Source of the DNA: Carboxylicivirga fragile | GTDB lineage: Bacteria > Bacteroidota > Bacteroidia > Bacteroidales > Marinilabiliaceae | Length of the DNA: 64,000 nt | Direction: 5' to 3' | NCBI GenBank assembly: GCA_025499625.1 | Contig: JAFMVD010000011.1 | Location: 62,001-126,000, forward strand | Shown: positions 31,832-62,400 of the stretch, in pieces | How positions within the stretch are numbered: the first letter of the stretch is position 1 | How the letters are laid out: each line of letters starts with the position of its first letter | Position numbers and translations under genes: made by a program | The notes under the pieces: model-generated | Databases searched by the model: none | The model's input: the letters and a program-made list of their open reading frames with translations, nothing else | What the model was told of the DNA's origin: nothing

Positions 31832-32782
31832 CTATTCACCCTTAGGCAAATAATTACAAACAACCGACCGTATCATACGCTCATCTTTTTGCAATTGTTG
31901 CATTAAAGCGTCTACGTTTTCAAATTTCATTTCTTCTCTCACTCTCTCAATGAATTCCACTTGTACTTCTTCGGAGTATATATCGCGGTTGAAGTCAAAA
32001 ATATGCACTTCGAGTGAGCGGTGATCTACATTGTGATTAACAGTGGGGCGATAACCAATGTTTAACATGCCTCCAAAAAGTTTGCCTTCAACCCGAACTA
32101 AACAGGCATATACACCATCAGGAGGGATTAATTTATGCGATTCATTTACTTCGATATTAGCTGTTGGGTAACCTATTCGCCTCCCCAATTGCTGCCCGCC
32201 TACAACTCTTCCGCTTACCAAAAAATGATAACCAAGAATGGTGTTTGCGTTTGTAATATCTCCATTACTTAAATAATTACGGATGTCGGAAGAACTAGTT
32301 TTAAGCCCATTGGTTAGAACTGCTTCAACTTGTGAAATGGAAAAGTTGTATGTTTTTGCGAAATCTTCATATTCGCTGAAACTGTGTTGACGACCTTTCC
32401 CAAAGCGATGATTAAATCCGACTAGTAGGTGTTTGATATTTATTTGTTTGACCAAGAAGTCAGTGATAAACTCTTCGGATGTAAGGTTGGCTAATTCTTT
32501 AGTGAAAGGAATGAGTAGTAAATGGTCGATGCCCAATTGGCTGAACAAAATGGTGCGTTCTTCGGGTGACGTCAGAAAACGTAGTGCTTCCTTATCTTGA
32601 TTCAGCACCATGCGAGGATGTGGCCAAAAGGTGATGACAACAGATTCGCCATTGAGTTGCTGAGCTTTACCAATAAGTTGTTTTAACAATTCGCGATGAC
32701 CTGAATGCACACCATCAAACATGCCTATTGTTACAGCAGGGTTATGAGCTTTGAATGTTGATAAATCTGAATGAACCTTCAC
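31832..32782 (-). CDS. ribF: Bifunctional riboflavin kinase / FAD synthetase
   Basis: RibF phosphorylates riboflavin to FMN and adenylates FMN to FAD. The N-terminal nucleotidyltransferase domain has TIGMFDGVHSGHRELLKQL and, later, NHRFGKGR. The C-terminal kinase domain has VVGGQQLGRRIGYPTANI, GVYACLVRVEG and LEVHIFDFNRDIY. 316 residues is the usual length. No riboswitch fold was seen upstream; the 5' region is very short, with TATTTTTG on the minus strand at 32797-32804, giving an almost leaderless transcript. Independent of ahcY, 53 bases away. Confidence 0.94.
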   Translation of the reverse strand: MKVHSDLSTFKAHNPAVTIGMFDGVHSGHRELLKQLIGKAQQLNGESVVITFWPHPRMVLNQDKEALRFLTSPEERTILFSQLGIDHLLLIPFTKELANLTSEEFITDFLVKQINIKHLLVGFNHRFGKGRQHSFSEYEDFAKTYNFSISQVEAVLTNGLKTSSSDIRNYLSNGDITNANTILGYHFLVSGRVVGGQQLGRRIGYPTANIEVNESHKLIPPDGVYACLVRVEGKLFGGMLNIGYRPTVNHNVDHRSLEVHIFDFNRDIYSEEVQVEFIERVREEMKFENVDALMQQLQKDERMIRSVVCNYLPKGE

Positions 32783-33277: not shown

Positions 33278-33282
33278 TGTTT

Positions 33283-33327
33283 ATACCATTTGTATTCCAA
33301 AATGATTGATAAAGTATTTTGCTAATT
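33283..33327. repeat. Dispersed hairpin repeat, copy A
   Basis: Begins ATACCATTTGTATTCC, then AAAATGATTGATAAAGTATTTTG and GCTAATT. It is closely related to copies at 33630 and 43053. The AAAATGATT core is a degraded hairpin here. It directly abuts the first unit of the 21-bp array. Confidence 0.7.
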
Positions 33328-33621
33328 ACATACAACGGCAACCATCTTACAAACGCGTCTGTCAGACTTACATATAATGCTGCCTGACTTACATAGCCTG
33401 CTGGTATTAATACATACAATGCTGGCACTTTTGCATACTCCTCTGTTACGATTACATACCATGCTGACTGCCTTACTTAGTCGGCTGACATTGAAACATA
33501 CACCGCACACACCTTTACATACCCTTCTATCCGCCTTACATACTTAGCTTCCTACCTTACATTGCGAACCGACATTGAAACATACAGCTCTGTCAACACT
33601 GCATACTACTTCACCATTAAT
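33328..33621. repeat. Array of fourteen degenerate 21-bp units, no indels
   Basis: Every 21 bases the motif ACATAC recurs at the same phase, with variable middle (core GCTG or CTCTG at positions 10-13) and usually CTT or ATT at the end. Unit starts are 33328, 33349, 33370, 33391, 33412, 33433, 33454, 33475, 33496, 33517, 33538, 33559, 33580 and 33601, all exact 21-base steps. Units 8 and 12 share a 14-base stretch (GACATTGAAACATA). Read on the minus strand, each unit is seven codons with pattern x-x-x-S/R-x-V-C, interrupted by a stop in unit 11. It is not a CRISPR, because there are no separate conserved repeats and spacers. Nature unknown. Confidence 0.85.
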
Positions 33622-33629
33622 ACCATATA

Positions 33630-33681
33630 ATACCAATTGTATTCCCAAATGATTGTTAAATCATTTTATTAATTACAATGG
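33630..33681. repeat. Dispersed hairpin repeat, copy B
   Basis: Starts ATACCAATTGTATTCCC, then AAATGATT-GTTA-AATCATTTT, an eight-base inverted repeat, and ends AATTACAATGG. It lies in the same orientation as copies A and C, immediately after the 21-bp array. Confidence 0.7.
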
Positions 33682-33702
33682 TTGTGTATCGATATCATAC
33701 TA

Positions 33703-35568
33703 TTATTTCTTTATCTCAAGTAAAAGGAATGAACGTGCATCAATGCTAAGTTCATCTTGTTTAAGATTAATAGTTTTGTCGGTCATTACATTTATGGCTT
33801 CTGTAGCATCACCAAGTACTTCATTTTTAAAATTGCTTAATGACAGATTTTTTGCCTCAGAATTCTTATTCATTACCAACATTACAATGCTGTCGTCGTT
33901 ATATCTAAACAAAGTGTAGATGCCTGATTGTTTTGCTGGTGCAAAATGTTTTAGTTCACCATTGTGAATGGCTGTATTGCTTTTGCGCCAGTTGAATAAC
34001 TTCTTAAGCAAAGCTTGTGCTTCTTTTTGATCAGCACTTAAGCCCTCACCAGTAAAGGCATTTATTTCATCACCTTCCCAGCCTCCAGGAAAATCACCAC
34101 GTATTTCACCATGAGAATCACTATTAGGGTTAGTCATTAGAATCTCGGTACCATAGTATATTTGAGGTATTCCACGGGTAACTGTTAGGTAGGCCATTCC
34201 CATTTTAAATAAGTCAAAATCCTCATTTATTTGAGTATAGAAGCGACTCATGTCGTGATTGTCGGGAAAGGTAACCAGTTGCATCGGGTCAGCATACAAA
34301 TGATCGTTGGCCAGAGTTCCGTATAGTTTTATAAGACCTTGTCCCCAATGACTATCATCTTCATTAAGCCCTTTAATCAATGCTTCCTGAAGTGGGAAAT
34401 CAAAAATGCCTGGCATGTACGAGATGTATCCATCATGGTTAATTTTCCCTTTTTGCCAATATGATACGATGGATGGATTTGTTGACCACTCTTCTCCAAC
34501 AATATTGAAATTAGGATACTCCTTCATTACACGACGCGTCCATTCCGACATAAATTCTTTATCAGGATAAGGATAGGTATCCATTCTTATTCCGCCCAGA
34601 TTGGCGTATTCAACCCACCAAATAGTATTGTAAATTAAATAGTCGGCTAATAATGGATTGCGTTGATTTAAGTCAGGCATGGTTTCGACGAACCAACCAT
34701 CGCTGTGCATTTTTTTATCGTAGTCAGATGCGTAAGGATCCATATTTGTTTCACGAACATGTGTTGTGGGCTGCCATCCATCCTGAAAATTCAACCAGTC
34801 GTTGCAAGGCAAATCTTCCATCCACCAATGTTCTGAACCACAATGATTCAAAATCATGTCGATGATTAATTTGATGCCTCGTTCCTCTGCTTTTTCTGAT
34901 AATCTCAGATAATCTTCGTTGCTCCCGTAGCGAGCATCAGTTTCGTAAAAGTCAGTAATGGCATATCCGTGATACGATGTGCTTGTCATGTTATTTTCCA
35001 TAACAGGATTGAGCCAAAGTGCTGTGTAGCCCATGTCATCCAAATAATCCAGATTGTTGATAATTCCATCTAAATCGCCACCGTGTCGCCCATTAAGATC
35101 AGCTCTATTAGACTGCTCGGTCATGCCAGCTACGTTGTCGTTATCAGGGTTGCCATTGGCAAAACGATCAGGTGTAATAAGGCACATCACATCCGAAGCA
35201 TCATAACCTTGACGGGCCGCCGATCCTTCTTTACGTGCTTTTAGTTCATAGGTGTATGAAAGTACCTTTTTTCCTTTTCTGTTAAAAGTAATGTCGAAAG
35301 TGCCAGGTTTTACAGATTTATCAATGTTTAAATAAAGGAAAAGGTAGTTTGGCGATTCAACCAGAGTGCTTCTTTCGATACTAACACCTGGGTAATCTAT
35401 GCTCGGGCGAAGGTCAGAGATATTTGGGCCATAAGCCATGATTTGAAGTTCTGAATTCTCCATTCCTGCCCACCAAAAAGCGGGTTCCAATCGATCAATT
35501 TTGTATTTGGCATCAATCGTTGCATTTAATGCCAGTGTCATAATGAGAATACTTATTATCTTCTTCAT
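33703..35568 (-). CDS. Secreted alpha-amylase family protein, GH13 (neopullulanase-like)
   Basis: 621 residues with signal peptide MKKIISILIMTLALNATIDA. Residues 25-115 are an N-terminal beta-sandwich as in cyclomaltodextrinases/neopullulanases. The barrel follows with DRFANGNPDN, the catalytic nucleophile Asp330 in GGIRMD, the acid/base Glu359 in IVGEEW and Asp439 in FPDNHD. A C-terminal beta-domain closes the protein, with SIVMLVMNKNS. It would hydrolyse alpha-1,4 (and perhaps 1,6) glucans in periplasm or at the surface. It is the second gene after the esterase on the minus strand, 19 bases downstream of it, and ends only 20 bases from the repeat copy B. Confidence 0.92.
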   Translation of the reverse strand: MKKIISILIMTLALNATIDAKYKIDRLEPAFWWAGMENSELQIMAYGPNISDLRPSIDYPGVSIERSTLVESPNYLFLYLNIDKSVKPGTFDITFNRKGKKVLSYTYELKARKEGSAARQGYDASDVMCLITPDRFANGNPDNDNVAGMTEQSNRADLNGRHGGDLDGIINNLDYLDDMGYTALWLNPVMENNMTSTSYHGYAITDFYETDARYGSNEDYLRLSEKAEERGIKLIIDMILNHCGSEHWWMEDLPCNDWLNFQDGWQPTTHVRETNMDPYASDYDKKMHSDGWFVETMPDLNQRNPLLADYLIYNTIWWVEYANLGGIRMDTYPYPDKEFMSEWTRRVMKEYPNFNIVGEEWSTNPSIVSYWQKGKINHDGYISYMPGIFDFPLQEALIKGLNEDDSHWGQGLIKLYGTLANDHLYADPMQLVTFPDNHDMSRFYTQINEDFDLFKMGMAYLTVTRGIPQIYYGTEILMTNPNSDSHGEIRGDFPGGWEGDEINAFTGEGLSADQKEAQALLKKLFNWRKSNTAIHNGELKHFAPAKQSGIYTLFRYNDDSIVMLVMNKNSEAKNLSLSNFKNEVLGDATEAINVMTDKTINLKQDELSIDARSFLLLEIKK

Positions 35569-43052: not shown

Positions 43053-43098
43053 ATACCAATTGTATTCCAAAATGATTGATAAATCATTTTGCTAATTA
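43053..43098. repeat. Dispersed hairpin repeat, copy C
   Basis: Best-preserved copy: ATACCAATTGTATTCC, then AAAATGATT-GATA-AATCATTTT, a nine-base perfect inverted repeat, and GCTAATTA. It is located ten kilobases from copies A and B, in a gene-free gap between DUF2007 and carA. Confidence 0.75.
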
Positions 43099-43116
43099 TC
43101 CCGATAATTATCGGGA
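43099..43116. repeat. Perfect 18-bp palindrome TCCCGATAA/TTATCGGGA
   Basis: Begins where hairpin repeat copy C ends, and shares the core CCCGATA..TATCGGG with palindromes at 18562 and 58882. The rest of the gap (43117-43200) holds no recognisable gene. Confidence 0.6.
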
Positions 43117-43214
43117 GTTAATGCCGATACAAAAGCACAGGTTGATTTTTTTATCAATCGTTTTGGTTTGTAAGCGGTATTACAAGTCGCGCCCCCGTAT
43201 TGTTTGTAATTAAA

Positions 43215-59448: not shown

Positions 59449-62400
59449 ATGAAGAAGAACGTCAAAAAGGTAATTGTACTAGGTTCGGGAGCGCTTAAGA
59501 TTGGCGAGGCTGGTGAATTTGATTATTCTGGCTCACAAGCTTTGAAGGCTTTAAAGGAAGAGGGAATTGAAACGGTATTAATTAATCCAAACATTGCAAC
59601 TGTACAAACTTCTGAAGGAATAGCAGATAAGATTTACTACTTGCCTGTAACGCCTTATTTTGTTGAGGAAGTGATGAAGAAGGAGAATCCCGAAGGTATT
59701 CTTTTGGCGTTTGGAGGTCAGACTGCATTAAATTGTGGTACTGAATTATATGAAAATGGCATTCTTGAAAAGTACAATGTTGAGGTGCTTGGTACACCTG
59801 TGCAATCTATTATTGATACTGAAGATAGAGAGATATTTGCCAACAAGCTAAAGGAGATTGATGTAAAAACTCCTATTAGTATAGCGGTTACCTCTGTTGA
59901 GGAGGCTGTAAAAGCATCCAAAGAAATAGGTTTTCCAATCATTGTTCGTGCTGCCTATACGCTTGGCGGAATGGGCTCTGGTTTTTGCCACAGCACTGAG
60001 GAATTGATTGAGCGAGCTGAAAATGCTTTTTCATACTCCAATCAGATATTGGTTGAAGAATCATTAAAAGGTTGGAAAGAGGTAGAGTACGAAGTGGTTC
60101 GTGATGCTTACAATAACTGTATTACTGTTTGTAATATGGAAAACTTCGATCCACTTGGTATACACACTGGGGAAAGTATTGTAGTAGCGCCATCGCAAAC
60201 ACTATCAAATTCGGAGTATCATAAGCTAAGGGAGCTTGCCATTAAAATAATTCGCCACATTGGAGTTGTTGGTGAGTGTAATGTGCAATATACTTTAGAT
60301 CCTAACTCTGAAGATTACCGTGTAATTGAAGTGAATGCACGTTTATCTCGTTCGAGCGCTTTGGCATCAAAAGCCACTGGTTATCCATTGGCTTTTATTG
60401 CGGCTAAACTTGGTTTGGGTTACAGTTTGCATGAGTTGAAAAACTCTGTAACGAAAACAACTACAGCCTTTTTTGAGCCAGCTTTAGATTATGTTGTGTG
60501 TAAGATACCTCGTTGGGATTTAGGGAAGTTTTCAGGCGTATCTAAACAGATAGGATCAAGTATGAAGTCCGTTGGAGAGATTATGGCCATCGGTCGTAAT
60601 TTTGAAGAAGCCATTCAGAAGGGACTTCGTATGGTAGGGCAAGGCATGCACGGCTTTGTGGCCAACCAAGAGTTTAAGCAGGAAGGAATAATTGAGGAGC
60701 TGACAGAGCCGACTGATCAACGCGTTTTTGCAATTTCGGAGGCTTTGCAAGCAGGTATGAGCATTGATGAAATTCATGAGCATACACGAATAGATAAGTG
60801 GTTTCTTGAAAAATTAAAGAATATAACGGATCATCAGAAAGTATTGGAGTCGCATAATTCACTGGAGACATTACCTCGCGAAGATCTGTTGTTGGCGAAA
60901 AAGATGGGTTACTCTGATTTTCAGGTGGCACGATTGGTGTTGAACACACCTTCTGCTCAAATGGAGAAAGGTCTGCTACAAGTTCGCGCTTTTCGTAAAG
61001 CCAATGGTATATTACCTGTGGTTAAACAGATTGATACAATGGCGGGTGAGTTTCCAGCACAGATCAATTACCTGTATCTTACTTATAGTGGACAATTTCA
61101 TGATATCGATTATGAACAGGATGGTAAGTCGGTTATTGTGTTGGGTTCTGGTGCCTATCGCATTGGATCATCGGTCGAGTTCGACTGGTGCAGTGTAAAT
61201 GCCCTAAATACGATTAATAAGCAAAACCATCGATCAATAATGATCAATTATAATCCTGAGACGGTGAGTACGGATTACGATATGTGTGATCGTCTTTACT
61301 TTGATGAATTAACTCAGGAGCGTGTTTTGGATATCATTGATCTGGAAACACCAAAAGGAGTGATTGTTTCGGTGGGAGGACAGATTCCAAATAATCTGGC
61401 CATGAAGTTGCATCGTCAGGATGTACCTATTTTGGGTACTTCACCAGAGGATATTGATCGCGCCGAAAACCGTCAGAAGTTTTCGAGTTTGTTGGATGAG
61501 TTAGAAGTTGATCAGCCGCGTTGGAGCGAGTTAACCTCCATTGAAGATATATTCACATTCGTTGAAGAAGTTGGTTTCCCTGTTTTGGTTCGCCCATCTT
61601 ATGTGCTTTCAGGAGCTGCCATGAATGTGGTTTCGAACAAGGATGAGTTAGAGCATTTCTTAACACTTGCGGCTAATGTGTCAAAAGAATTTCCTGTGGT
61701 TGTATCTGAGTTTATTGAACAAGCTAAAGAAATTGAAATTGATGCGGTAGCTAACAAAGGTGAAGTTGTAGCTTATGCCATTAGTGAGCATATTGAGTTT
61801 GCTGGAGTTCACTCGGGTGATGCTACCATCGTGTTTCCACCTCAGAAGCTATATATTGAGACGATTCGTCGTGTAAAGCGCATATCAAAAGAAATTGCCA
61901 AAGGATTAAATATCTCGGGGCCTTTCAATATGCAGCTGTTGGCCAAGGATAACGATATAAAAGTGATTGAGTGTAATCTGCGCGCATCTCGTAGTTTCCC
62001 ATTTGTATCAAAAGTACTGAAGGTTAACTTAATTGATATTGCTACTCGTGTAATGCTTGGCTTGCCTGTTGAGAAGCCAAACAAGAGTTTGTTTGAACTG
62101 GATTACGTTGGGATAAAAGCTCCTCAATTCTCATTTGCTCGCTTGCAAAAGGCCGATCCTGTACTGGGGGTTGATATGTCATCGACAGGTGAAGTGGGTT
62201 GTATTGGCGATAATTATTACGATGCGGTGTTGCAAGCTATGTTATCGGTAGGTTACAAAATTCCTGAAAAGAACATTTTGATCTCATCGGGGCCTGCTCG
62301 TTCGAAACTGGAGTTGCTGAACAGTGCTCGTATGTTGAAGCAACGTGGTTTTAATTTATTCGCAACAGGAGGTACGCATAAATTCTTTGCGGAAAATAAT

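Follow-up and report, generated by a model that had tools for sequence, protein, structure and literature searches.

Iteron and partition-centromere arrays (RepA iterons, sopC, parC, tubC) consist of direct repeats that lie about one or two helical turns apart and are degenerate outside the contacted positions. They stand beside the gene of their DNA-binding partner, and their specificity is private to each system. Iteron- or centromere-binding proteins contact one face of the helix and stack in register. In type III toxin-antitoxin systems (ToxIN and its kin) structured RNA repeats are combined with an endoribonuclease. Further repeat systems are described in three reports. The BrickBuilt minisatellite-MITE of Porphyromonas gingivalis is built from 23-nt units with a leader and a tail, carries terminal inverted repeats and has varied neighbours (PMC4596501). 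TIGR-Tas systems possess 36-nt RNA units with edge and loop repeats and a Nop-domain protein (PMC12045711). TAACTGA heptamers occur as direct repeats upstream of genes, some Bacteroidetes included (PMC4679880). No description of the array-gene module reported here was found in the literature searched, which covered few subscription journals; its gene family is likewise undescribed.

The window, a stretch of 64,000 nucleotides from the Carboxylicivirga fragile genome (G000), contains an array of 21-bp units with the following features and neighbours.

31832..32782, minus strand: RibF-like gene, on the other side of the array from the amylase
33281..33327, plus strand: left flank, formed by the 5' portion of a repeat that is dispersed in the genome and has the ends ATACC/GGTAT (about 115 bp when complete)
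33328..33621, plus strand: array of 14 units of 21 bp of the type ACATACnnnnCTnnnnnnnTT, genus consensus ACATACGCTGCTGACGGCCTT (direct reading)
33622..33633, plus strand: array tail ACCATATAATAC, 11 of 12 bases (0.92) in common with the paralogous array G000:C68
33626..33683, plus strand: right flank, second partial copy of the ATACC/GGTAT dispersed repeat in the same orientation
33622..33702, no strand: gap of 81 bp from the array to the amylase stop; the 224-aa family gene is absent here and present between array and amylase in another genome of the genus, G010
33703..35568, minus strand: alpha-amylase-like gene with its 3' end toward the array

We take 33703..35568 to be alpha-amylase-like from the look of its sequence and 31832..32782 to be RibF-like; the gene opposite the amylase in several relatives is presumably carB.

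The original prediction of fourteen 21-bp units in perfect register was borne out by direct reading, every step between 33328 and 33621 being exactly 21 bp. Exact ACATAC is present in 7 of the 14 units, and the remaining ones carry ACAAAC, ACATAT, ACATAG, ACTTAG, ACATTG or, in two units, GCATAC. A three-unit ACATAC pattern with at most two mismatches gave nine matches in the window, all inside the array, and none in 100 dinucleotide shuffles. The array reached a weight-matrix chain score of 204.9 with a matrix whose source arrays include the window array itself, and no chain of at least 30 appeared in three mononucleotide shuffles of the window. The dinucleotide shuffles and the weight-matrix score thus exclude a chance origin. 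The suspected 84-bp higher-order period was confirmed in the window array as well. Non-core identity was 0.52 at an offset of four units (order-shuffle p = 0.0002) and not raised at offsets of 1, 2, 3, 5 and 6 units, and TRF gives a period of 84 across 33368-33522. Elsewhere in the window, a weak periodic region of lag 45 was noted at 59850 (z 5.5).

The window array and the paralogous G000:C68 array have 14 units each and are 81% identical over 307 bp, with 57 substitutions and no indel. Random indels in relatives had been named as an observation that would speak against selection on the spacing, and the outcome was mixed: some indels and changes of unit number exist in relatives, and none separates the window array from its 81% paralog. 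A few steps of 22, 18 or 42 bp occur in other ACATAC-type arrays; hence an indel-free register is no rule of the array family. Between the window array and G000:C68 the substitutions fall on 18 of 126 core positions and on 39 of 168 positions in the other columns (p = 0.07), a weak sign of constraint on the core columns. An array pair from G009 and G011 gave 9/114 core and 42/146 other substitutions in a Fisher test. Such tests on pairs besides window/C68 were dropped as evidence of selection, since the units of these pairs lack one-to-one homology and even wrongly paired units would agree in the core.

Both flanks of the window array are partial copies of a dispersed repeat, as had been noted. 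The repeats were rejected as a component of the array element because the paralogous array G000:C68 is without them. Apart from the window array, the ATACC/GGTAT repeat, which looks like a MITE, was located at 14 sites of G000 (16 candidates were scored), 7 of them at contig ends. It was noted at window positions 43053-43165 and on contigs of G000 (L012-L022). Two arrays (L061, L067) have a hairpin repeat with CCCCTTGGGGAAG at their side, and this repeat also occurs in the array-free carB-amylase gap of G011 (L225). BrickBuilt shares with the arrays the occurrence in Bacteroidota, the intergenic position, imperfect tandem units with conserved and non-conserved sites and many copies per genome, but its period is 23 nt instead of 21 (PMC4596501). 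As to the embedding in a MITE seen in BrickBuilt, the window copy lies between two partial dispersed repeats in direct orientation, while its paralog C68 is without such flanks, a comparison of two arrays.

In the genus, 14 ACATAC-type arrays with 214 units were found in seven genomes (G000, G003, G005, G007, G009, G010, G011). Three of them belong to the window genome, namely the window copy, G000:C68 and G000:C77. Over the 214 units, columns 1-5 (ACATA), 11-12 (CT) and 20-21 (TT) hold at least 0.87 bits each and columns 7, 8, 14 and 16-18 at most 0.22 bits, and the shared core of the units amounts to about 12 bits. The nine kept columns read TTACATA, followed about 10 bp away, one turn of B-DNA, by CT. 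To the single conserved block of the original prediction, ACATAC, the 214 units add a second, CT[G/A] at columns 11-13, about one turn from TTACATA.

The differences between units were compared over 12 arrays with 185 units at the 12 non-core columns, two close paralogs being excluded. They amounted to 0.653 for neighbouring units, 0.611 for pairs within an array, 0.638 for random draws and 0.645 for units of different arrays; at the core columns the difference was 0.23 both within and between arrays. Because neighbours differ as much as random draws, the units are not homogenised. The view that the spacing is conserved and the middles are randomised is supported, the 12 columns differing about like random draws. 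The G003:C30 array (L060, 19 units) contains a five-unit (105-bp) higher-order repeat with a non-core identity of 0.75 at offset five. Over the 14 arrays offset one was least alike (0.337), so that the arrays seem to grow by blocks and not by single units. Two arrays of G005 are 95% identical over 149 bp. Such duplications bear on the explanation that an old minisatellite without any function hitch-hikes with a gene module; its period would go back to a single ancestor and be maintained by slippage and homogenisation. Block duplication in the window (84 bp) and in G003 (105 bp) and the pair of G005 agree with a minisatellite, whereas nine columns are fixed across loci and species although neighbouring units differ like random draws.

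Of the 14 arrays of the genus, six are followed after 215-355 bp by a gene encoding a 224-aa protein. Carboxylicivirga marina possesses an array as well as the gene. Seven, the window copy included, have no gene of this family among the nearest ORFs, and the G000:C77 array is cut by a contig end. The gene-less ACATAC-type arrays are about as intact as the gene-linked ones. A periodicity scan without motif, covering lags 8-63, gave lag 21 or 42 in 75 of 81 periodic regions, a count biased by loci partly chosen for ACATAC and by overlapping loci that repeat the same arrays. The family loci used for a direct test were among the matches listed in profile searches. In the 1 kb before the start codon the top lag was 21, 42 or 63 in 51 of 56 family genes, with z of at least 5 in 50. 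This set leaves out eight duplicate loci, fragments and genes without a usable start (L102, L106/L145, L107, L128, L129). The misses were L090, L095, L114 (278 bp of upstream sequence), L120 (lags 20/62) and L131, and L083 was weak (4.8). In the 1 kb after the start codon of the same 56 genes only three loci exceeded z 6, at lags 42 (L090), 50 and 14, and top lags of 21, 42 or 63 appeared in 13 loci, nearly all weaker. As a control, none of 211 array-distant 1-kb blocks showed lag 21, 42 or 63 at z of at least 5, such a lag being weakly on top in 25.

The mark of z of at least 5 was used in the control and then in a fresh sample, and was applied to the 56-gene set afterwards. The fresh sample comprised 27 new loci of the class survey (49 genomes with matches) together with L182 and L184; L162 was dropped (98 bp upstream), and L170 begins a few residues inside the gene. 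Here 17 of 28 family genes had an upstream array of 21-bp period, and 16 of 25 where at least 500 bp of upstream sequence was present. The 11 misses include L166 with lag 41 at z 16 and L163 with a 21-bp array downstream, which may belong to a next gene. Arrays of 21-bp period downstream instead of upstream of a family gene were thus seen in L090 and L163. Over 63 arrays the medians were 298 bp for the array length and 182 bp for the distance from the start codon, with about 14 units per array at the median and a range of 7-29 (segment caller). A search around the 63 arrays for TAnnTTTG, which we take to be the Bacteroidota-type promoter consensus, found no enrichment, with 8/63 in the spacers vs 6.3 in shuffled sequence, 5/63 in the arrays vs 6.9 and 0/63 before the array vs 5.2. 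Minisatellites of 21 or 42 bp with higher unit identity were also observed (L071 and L072 in G002, L076 in G013, L073 in G097, L075 in G047); by eye no family-like ORF lies near them, and some stand in open heptapeptide frames.

The site that is syntenic with the window locus is marked by amylase orthologues, which are 72-75% identical and come from 12 further genomes of the genus. In G010 a family gene and a 17-unit array are present within 1.5 kb beyond the amylase, the gene lying between the array and the amylase. In G005 an array and a family gene are located farther on, beside carB. The amylase faces carB across 97-731 bp, with no array and no gene, in G001, G002, G003, G006, G009, G011 and G012. 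G004 has a carB-like stretch by eye with another ORF between and no array, and G013 has a different gene at the site beyond the amylase; G008 did not enter this comparison. The window carries RibF where relatives have carB, and a search of the window for the family gene in six frames gave no match at E<=1. The nearest sequence relative of the window array is the G000:C68 array, which has the gene; consequently, copying within the genome has also occurred. The window array seems to be a copy orphaned from its gene, and we infer a loss of the gene at this locus rather than a copying of the array alone.

This distribution may also be explained by an attachment or exchange site that moves an array-gene cassette between chromosomal spots. 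Array and gene are present at the carB-amylase site of G010 and beside carB in G005 and absent in seven species, and both gene-less arrays and duplicated array-gene pairs exist. However, no common integrase or transposase was seen, as nothing except the family itself recurred in three or more of 29 neighbourhoods. Searches likewise gave no relatives of the family in viral contigs (member A2; 13 stretches matched a pattern, with no relative among them), in plasmids (two member queries) or in phages (one member query). We regard an exchange site as distinctly improbable.

The relation between array motif and linked protein was analysed with 47 of 56 arrays (segment score of at least 10, length of at least 150), of which 38 remained once similar arrays had been taken out; inclusion of the fresh sample gave 62. 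The mean motif likeness was 0.736 at protein identities of at least 70% (18 pairs) and 0.275-0.373 below 70%, compared to 0.253 for permuted columns. Arrays of the same genome with protein identity below 40% had a likeness of 0.315 (n=22) vs 0.286 (n=1733), which is borderline (p = 0.057). Four array pairs whose proteins are 24-27% identical also exceeded 0.6, contrary to a motif that follows the protein. Mainly, the array motif tracks the protein above 70% identity and differs between protein lineages. Since motifs are alike mainly at such identities, the 21-bp period outlives the sequence. Compared to the TAACTGA repeats, which have one fixed heptamer and varied downstream genes, the sequence varies here and the gene family is fixed (PMC4679880).

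The conservation profile of the 38 non-redundant arrays showed a 10.5-bp harmonic of 0.228 vs 0.10 expected (z 8.6), which was the top harmonic in 16 of the 38, the 21-bp harmonic being on top in 9. In the genus the 10.5-bp harmonic took 0.398 of the power and was on top in 17 of 21 arrays. Outside the genus it amounted to 0.191 vs 0.180 for the 21-bp harmonic, and in 16 fresh arrays it was slightly weaker (0.202 vs 0.207). Among eight 21-bp minisatellites taken as unlinked to the family, it was on top in two. Both low harmonics are overestimated by column permutation where the conserved columns adjoin one another. For this reason, and because the 10.5-bp excess outside the genus is small, the claim that the conserved columns lie on one face of the helix rests on the genus, where it is firm; elsewhere it is suggestive. 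With these grades, the original proposal that 21 bp represents two helical turns, as in an array of operators, gains support from conserved columns in helical register. The alternative of a curved-DNA element did not, as A+T was unphased at 10.5 bp (z 1.0) and raised at 7 bp (z 3.1) in the 38 arrays, a verdict drawn from A+T phasing. Taken overall, the earlier interpretation of the window array was partly supported; the link to a gene family and the lack of that gene at the window copy, which only a comparison with other genomes could bring out, were not part of it.

These data also bear on the functionless minisatellite. Other 21-bp minisatellites exist in some of these genomes without a family-like ORF nearby by eye, and the gene is absent at half of the ACATAC-type arrays, both of which would fit. 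However, the period of 21 survives the loss of sequence likeness between families, conservation is not random over the columns, and the control blocks gave 0/211. A hitch-hiking minisatellite is in our view unlikely, though a serious contender.

A repeat of 21 nt might also represent seven codons, and the minus-strand frame of the window array with the recurring V-C pattern and a stop in unit 11 is present as claimed. A heptad repeat, decayed or unusual, would give both the 21-nt period and, through coiled-coil a/d positions, two conserved blocks. Open frames do exist: G010 has one of 137 aa, of the 38 non-redundant arrays, 18 are free of stops in one or more of the six frames, and a His-Thr-x-Leu-x-x-Leu pattern was noted in open array frames. 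Nevertheless, in the arrays of the genus five frames had stop counts no more than 1.7 sd away from column shuffles, and the sixth had more stops than the shuffles; the lowest count was 26 vs 31.6 expected (z -1.7). There was no period-3 signal (power 0.067 vs 0.10 expected), and the third-position deficit in the forward frames was no larger than for permuted columns (-0.158 vs -0.184). Ten arrays lack a nearly open frame, the best frame of each having 0.12 or more stops per unit, and still showed the 10.5-bp harmonic at z 3.7 and the 21-bp harmonic at z 3.0; this matters because a heptad repeat, too, would produce two blocks per 21 nt. Doubts about coding had been voiced in the original prediction and are supported by the stops and the missing period-3 conservation. 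Heptapeptide coding is not supported, with stops about at or above shuffle level and no third-position relaxation, and we consider it highly improbable.

Another possibility is that the array is transcribed and its repeat RNA is the ligand of the encoded protein, on the model of type III toxin-antitoxin systems or TIGR-Tas. In common with the former, tandem repeats lie directly upstream of one gene, as the array usually does here. TIGR-Tas resembles the module in layout, with short repeats of variable part beside a single gene and repeat sequences that differ between loci (PMC12045711). In contrast to its dual-repeat 36-nt units (PMC12045711), the period found here is 21 with the multiples 42 and 63, and a Nop domain is not among the matches listed for the family protein. 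Nop gave no row for the first family member to E 0.1 and was absent from the 25 families listed of 36 for 24 members. A ToxN-like endoribonuclease was not found among the Pfam and PADLOC matches listed either, while NCBIfam gave sub-threshold rows alone. The fold z of the sense-strand RNA averaged -0.14 (sd 1.48), with 5 of 62 arrays below -2, for the first 210 bases of each array and a model without pseudoknots. A structured RNA is not supported, the fold z being on average that of shuffled sequence. Rfam gave no match in the window at the gathering threshold, and the one-turn spacing of the blocks has no obvious meaning in single-stranded RNA. Compared to type III toxin-antitoxin systems, no RNA structure was seen here on average and no endoribonuclease is among the matches listed; the protein is predicted to be an all-alpha bundle. 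A repeat RNA is improbable.

The product of the family gene is predicted to be all-helical and has 224 aa in the genus. It had no Pfam match at E<=0.001 and no PADLOC match, and NCBIfam and PHROGs returned sub-threshold rows alone, with prefoldin (0.023) and a helical binary toxin subunit (0.14) in NCBIfam. The Pfam family HBM weakly matched 2 of 24 members (best E 0.0052), and no recognised DNA-binding domain appeared in the Pfam searches. Family proteins are mildly acidic, with a median net charge of -3 and a range of -13 to 7. The model calculated from a 68-member alignment is an all-alpha bundle (pLDDT 92, pTM 0.68). Fold searches (PDB, VIA list) returned generic helical bundles and no clear structural relative; sensor bundles such as those of PilJ, McpS and TorS rank first or nearly first in the VIA list with weak likeness, and a profile search of solved sequences had a designed bundle as its best match (E 0.01). 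Sequence and model would weakly liken the protein to helical sensor bundles, which neither shows nor excludes any fold family.

A family member is present in 13 of the 14 genomes of the genus. A profile survey of the phylum found the family in 14 of 296 genomes, and a broader profile then found it in 49 of 395 genomes in the class and in 17 of 395 in the phylum; each of these counts includes the window genome. Many of the class matches lie in open frames of about 300-430 codons, and a CarboxypepD_reg domain was detected in two of three long members tested. The longer members L149 and L152 have a C-terminal CarboxypepD_reg domain and a helical domain from residue 1, with no evident signal peptide by eye. 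In G007, G009 and G011, genomes with gene-less ACATAC arrays, no family protein found exceeded 57% identity to the query.

Array and gene form a module. The association, the fixed period and the conserved columns amid a randomised rest lead to a reading as multi-site recognition of double-stranded DNA, which is the likely working form of the array. We give about an even chance to the reading that the window array is the orphan of a two-part Bacteroidota module, a row of 21-bp double-stranded DNA sites and the downstream gene of a helical protein. Such a module would consist of the row of sites and, just downstream at most sampled family loci, the gene of a putatively elongated, all-helical protein of about 220 aa, with longer forms that carry a C-terminal extension. 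A sequence-specific protein would recognise one face of the double helix through two contacts in every 21 bp and may stack in register from unit to unit; the resulting cooperative occupancy could control the neighbouring gene or mark the locus. The candidate binder is the encoded protein or another factor. As motifs differ between lineages, a lineage-specific partner is suggested, most simply the linked protein; its mild acidity, the lack of a known DNA-binding domain, the lean toward sensor bundles and the persistence of gene-less arrays disfavour it. In the window the gene may be missing by loss or by copying of the array alone, and the array would be a relic or act with a partner elsewhere.

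With iteron and partition-centromere arrays the module shares direct repeats and conserved columns in helical register, which is firm in the genus and suggestive outside, as well as a place next to the gene of a putative DNA-binding partner and motifs that are private to each lineage. It differs in its linked protein, for which our searches gave no match to a known Rep or Par family and which is probably a mildly acidic helical bundle. Furthermore, the arrays are chromosomal, with several per genome. On a bolder extension of the module reading, which we put forward tentatively and hold to be rather unlikely, each lineage would have a private 21-bp code and a cognate protein that polymerises in register. 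Several mutually orthogonal protein-DNA filaments would then be present side by side in the same genome, with control over expression, segregation or spread of the module, and gene-less arrays would be remnants or trans-acting outposts.

A period that persists while the sequence is replaced, and that goes with a single unnamed family across many genera, speaks for a protein-DNA system that has so far gone unrecognised in the Bacteroidota, a major phylum of the gut and the sea. Even after sequence similarity has vanished, the phasing of conserved columns can betray a function. If each protein binds its own array alone, the family would provide a set of orthogonal DNA-binding pairs.
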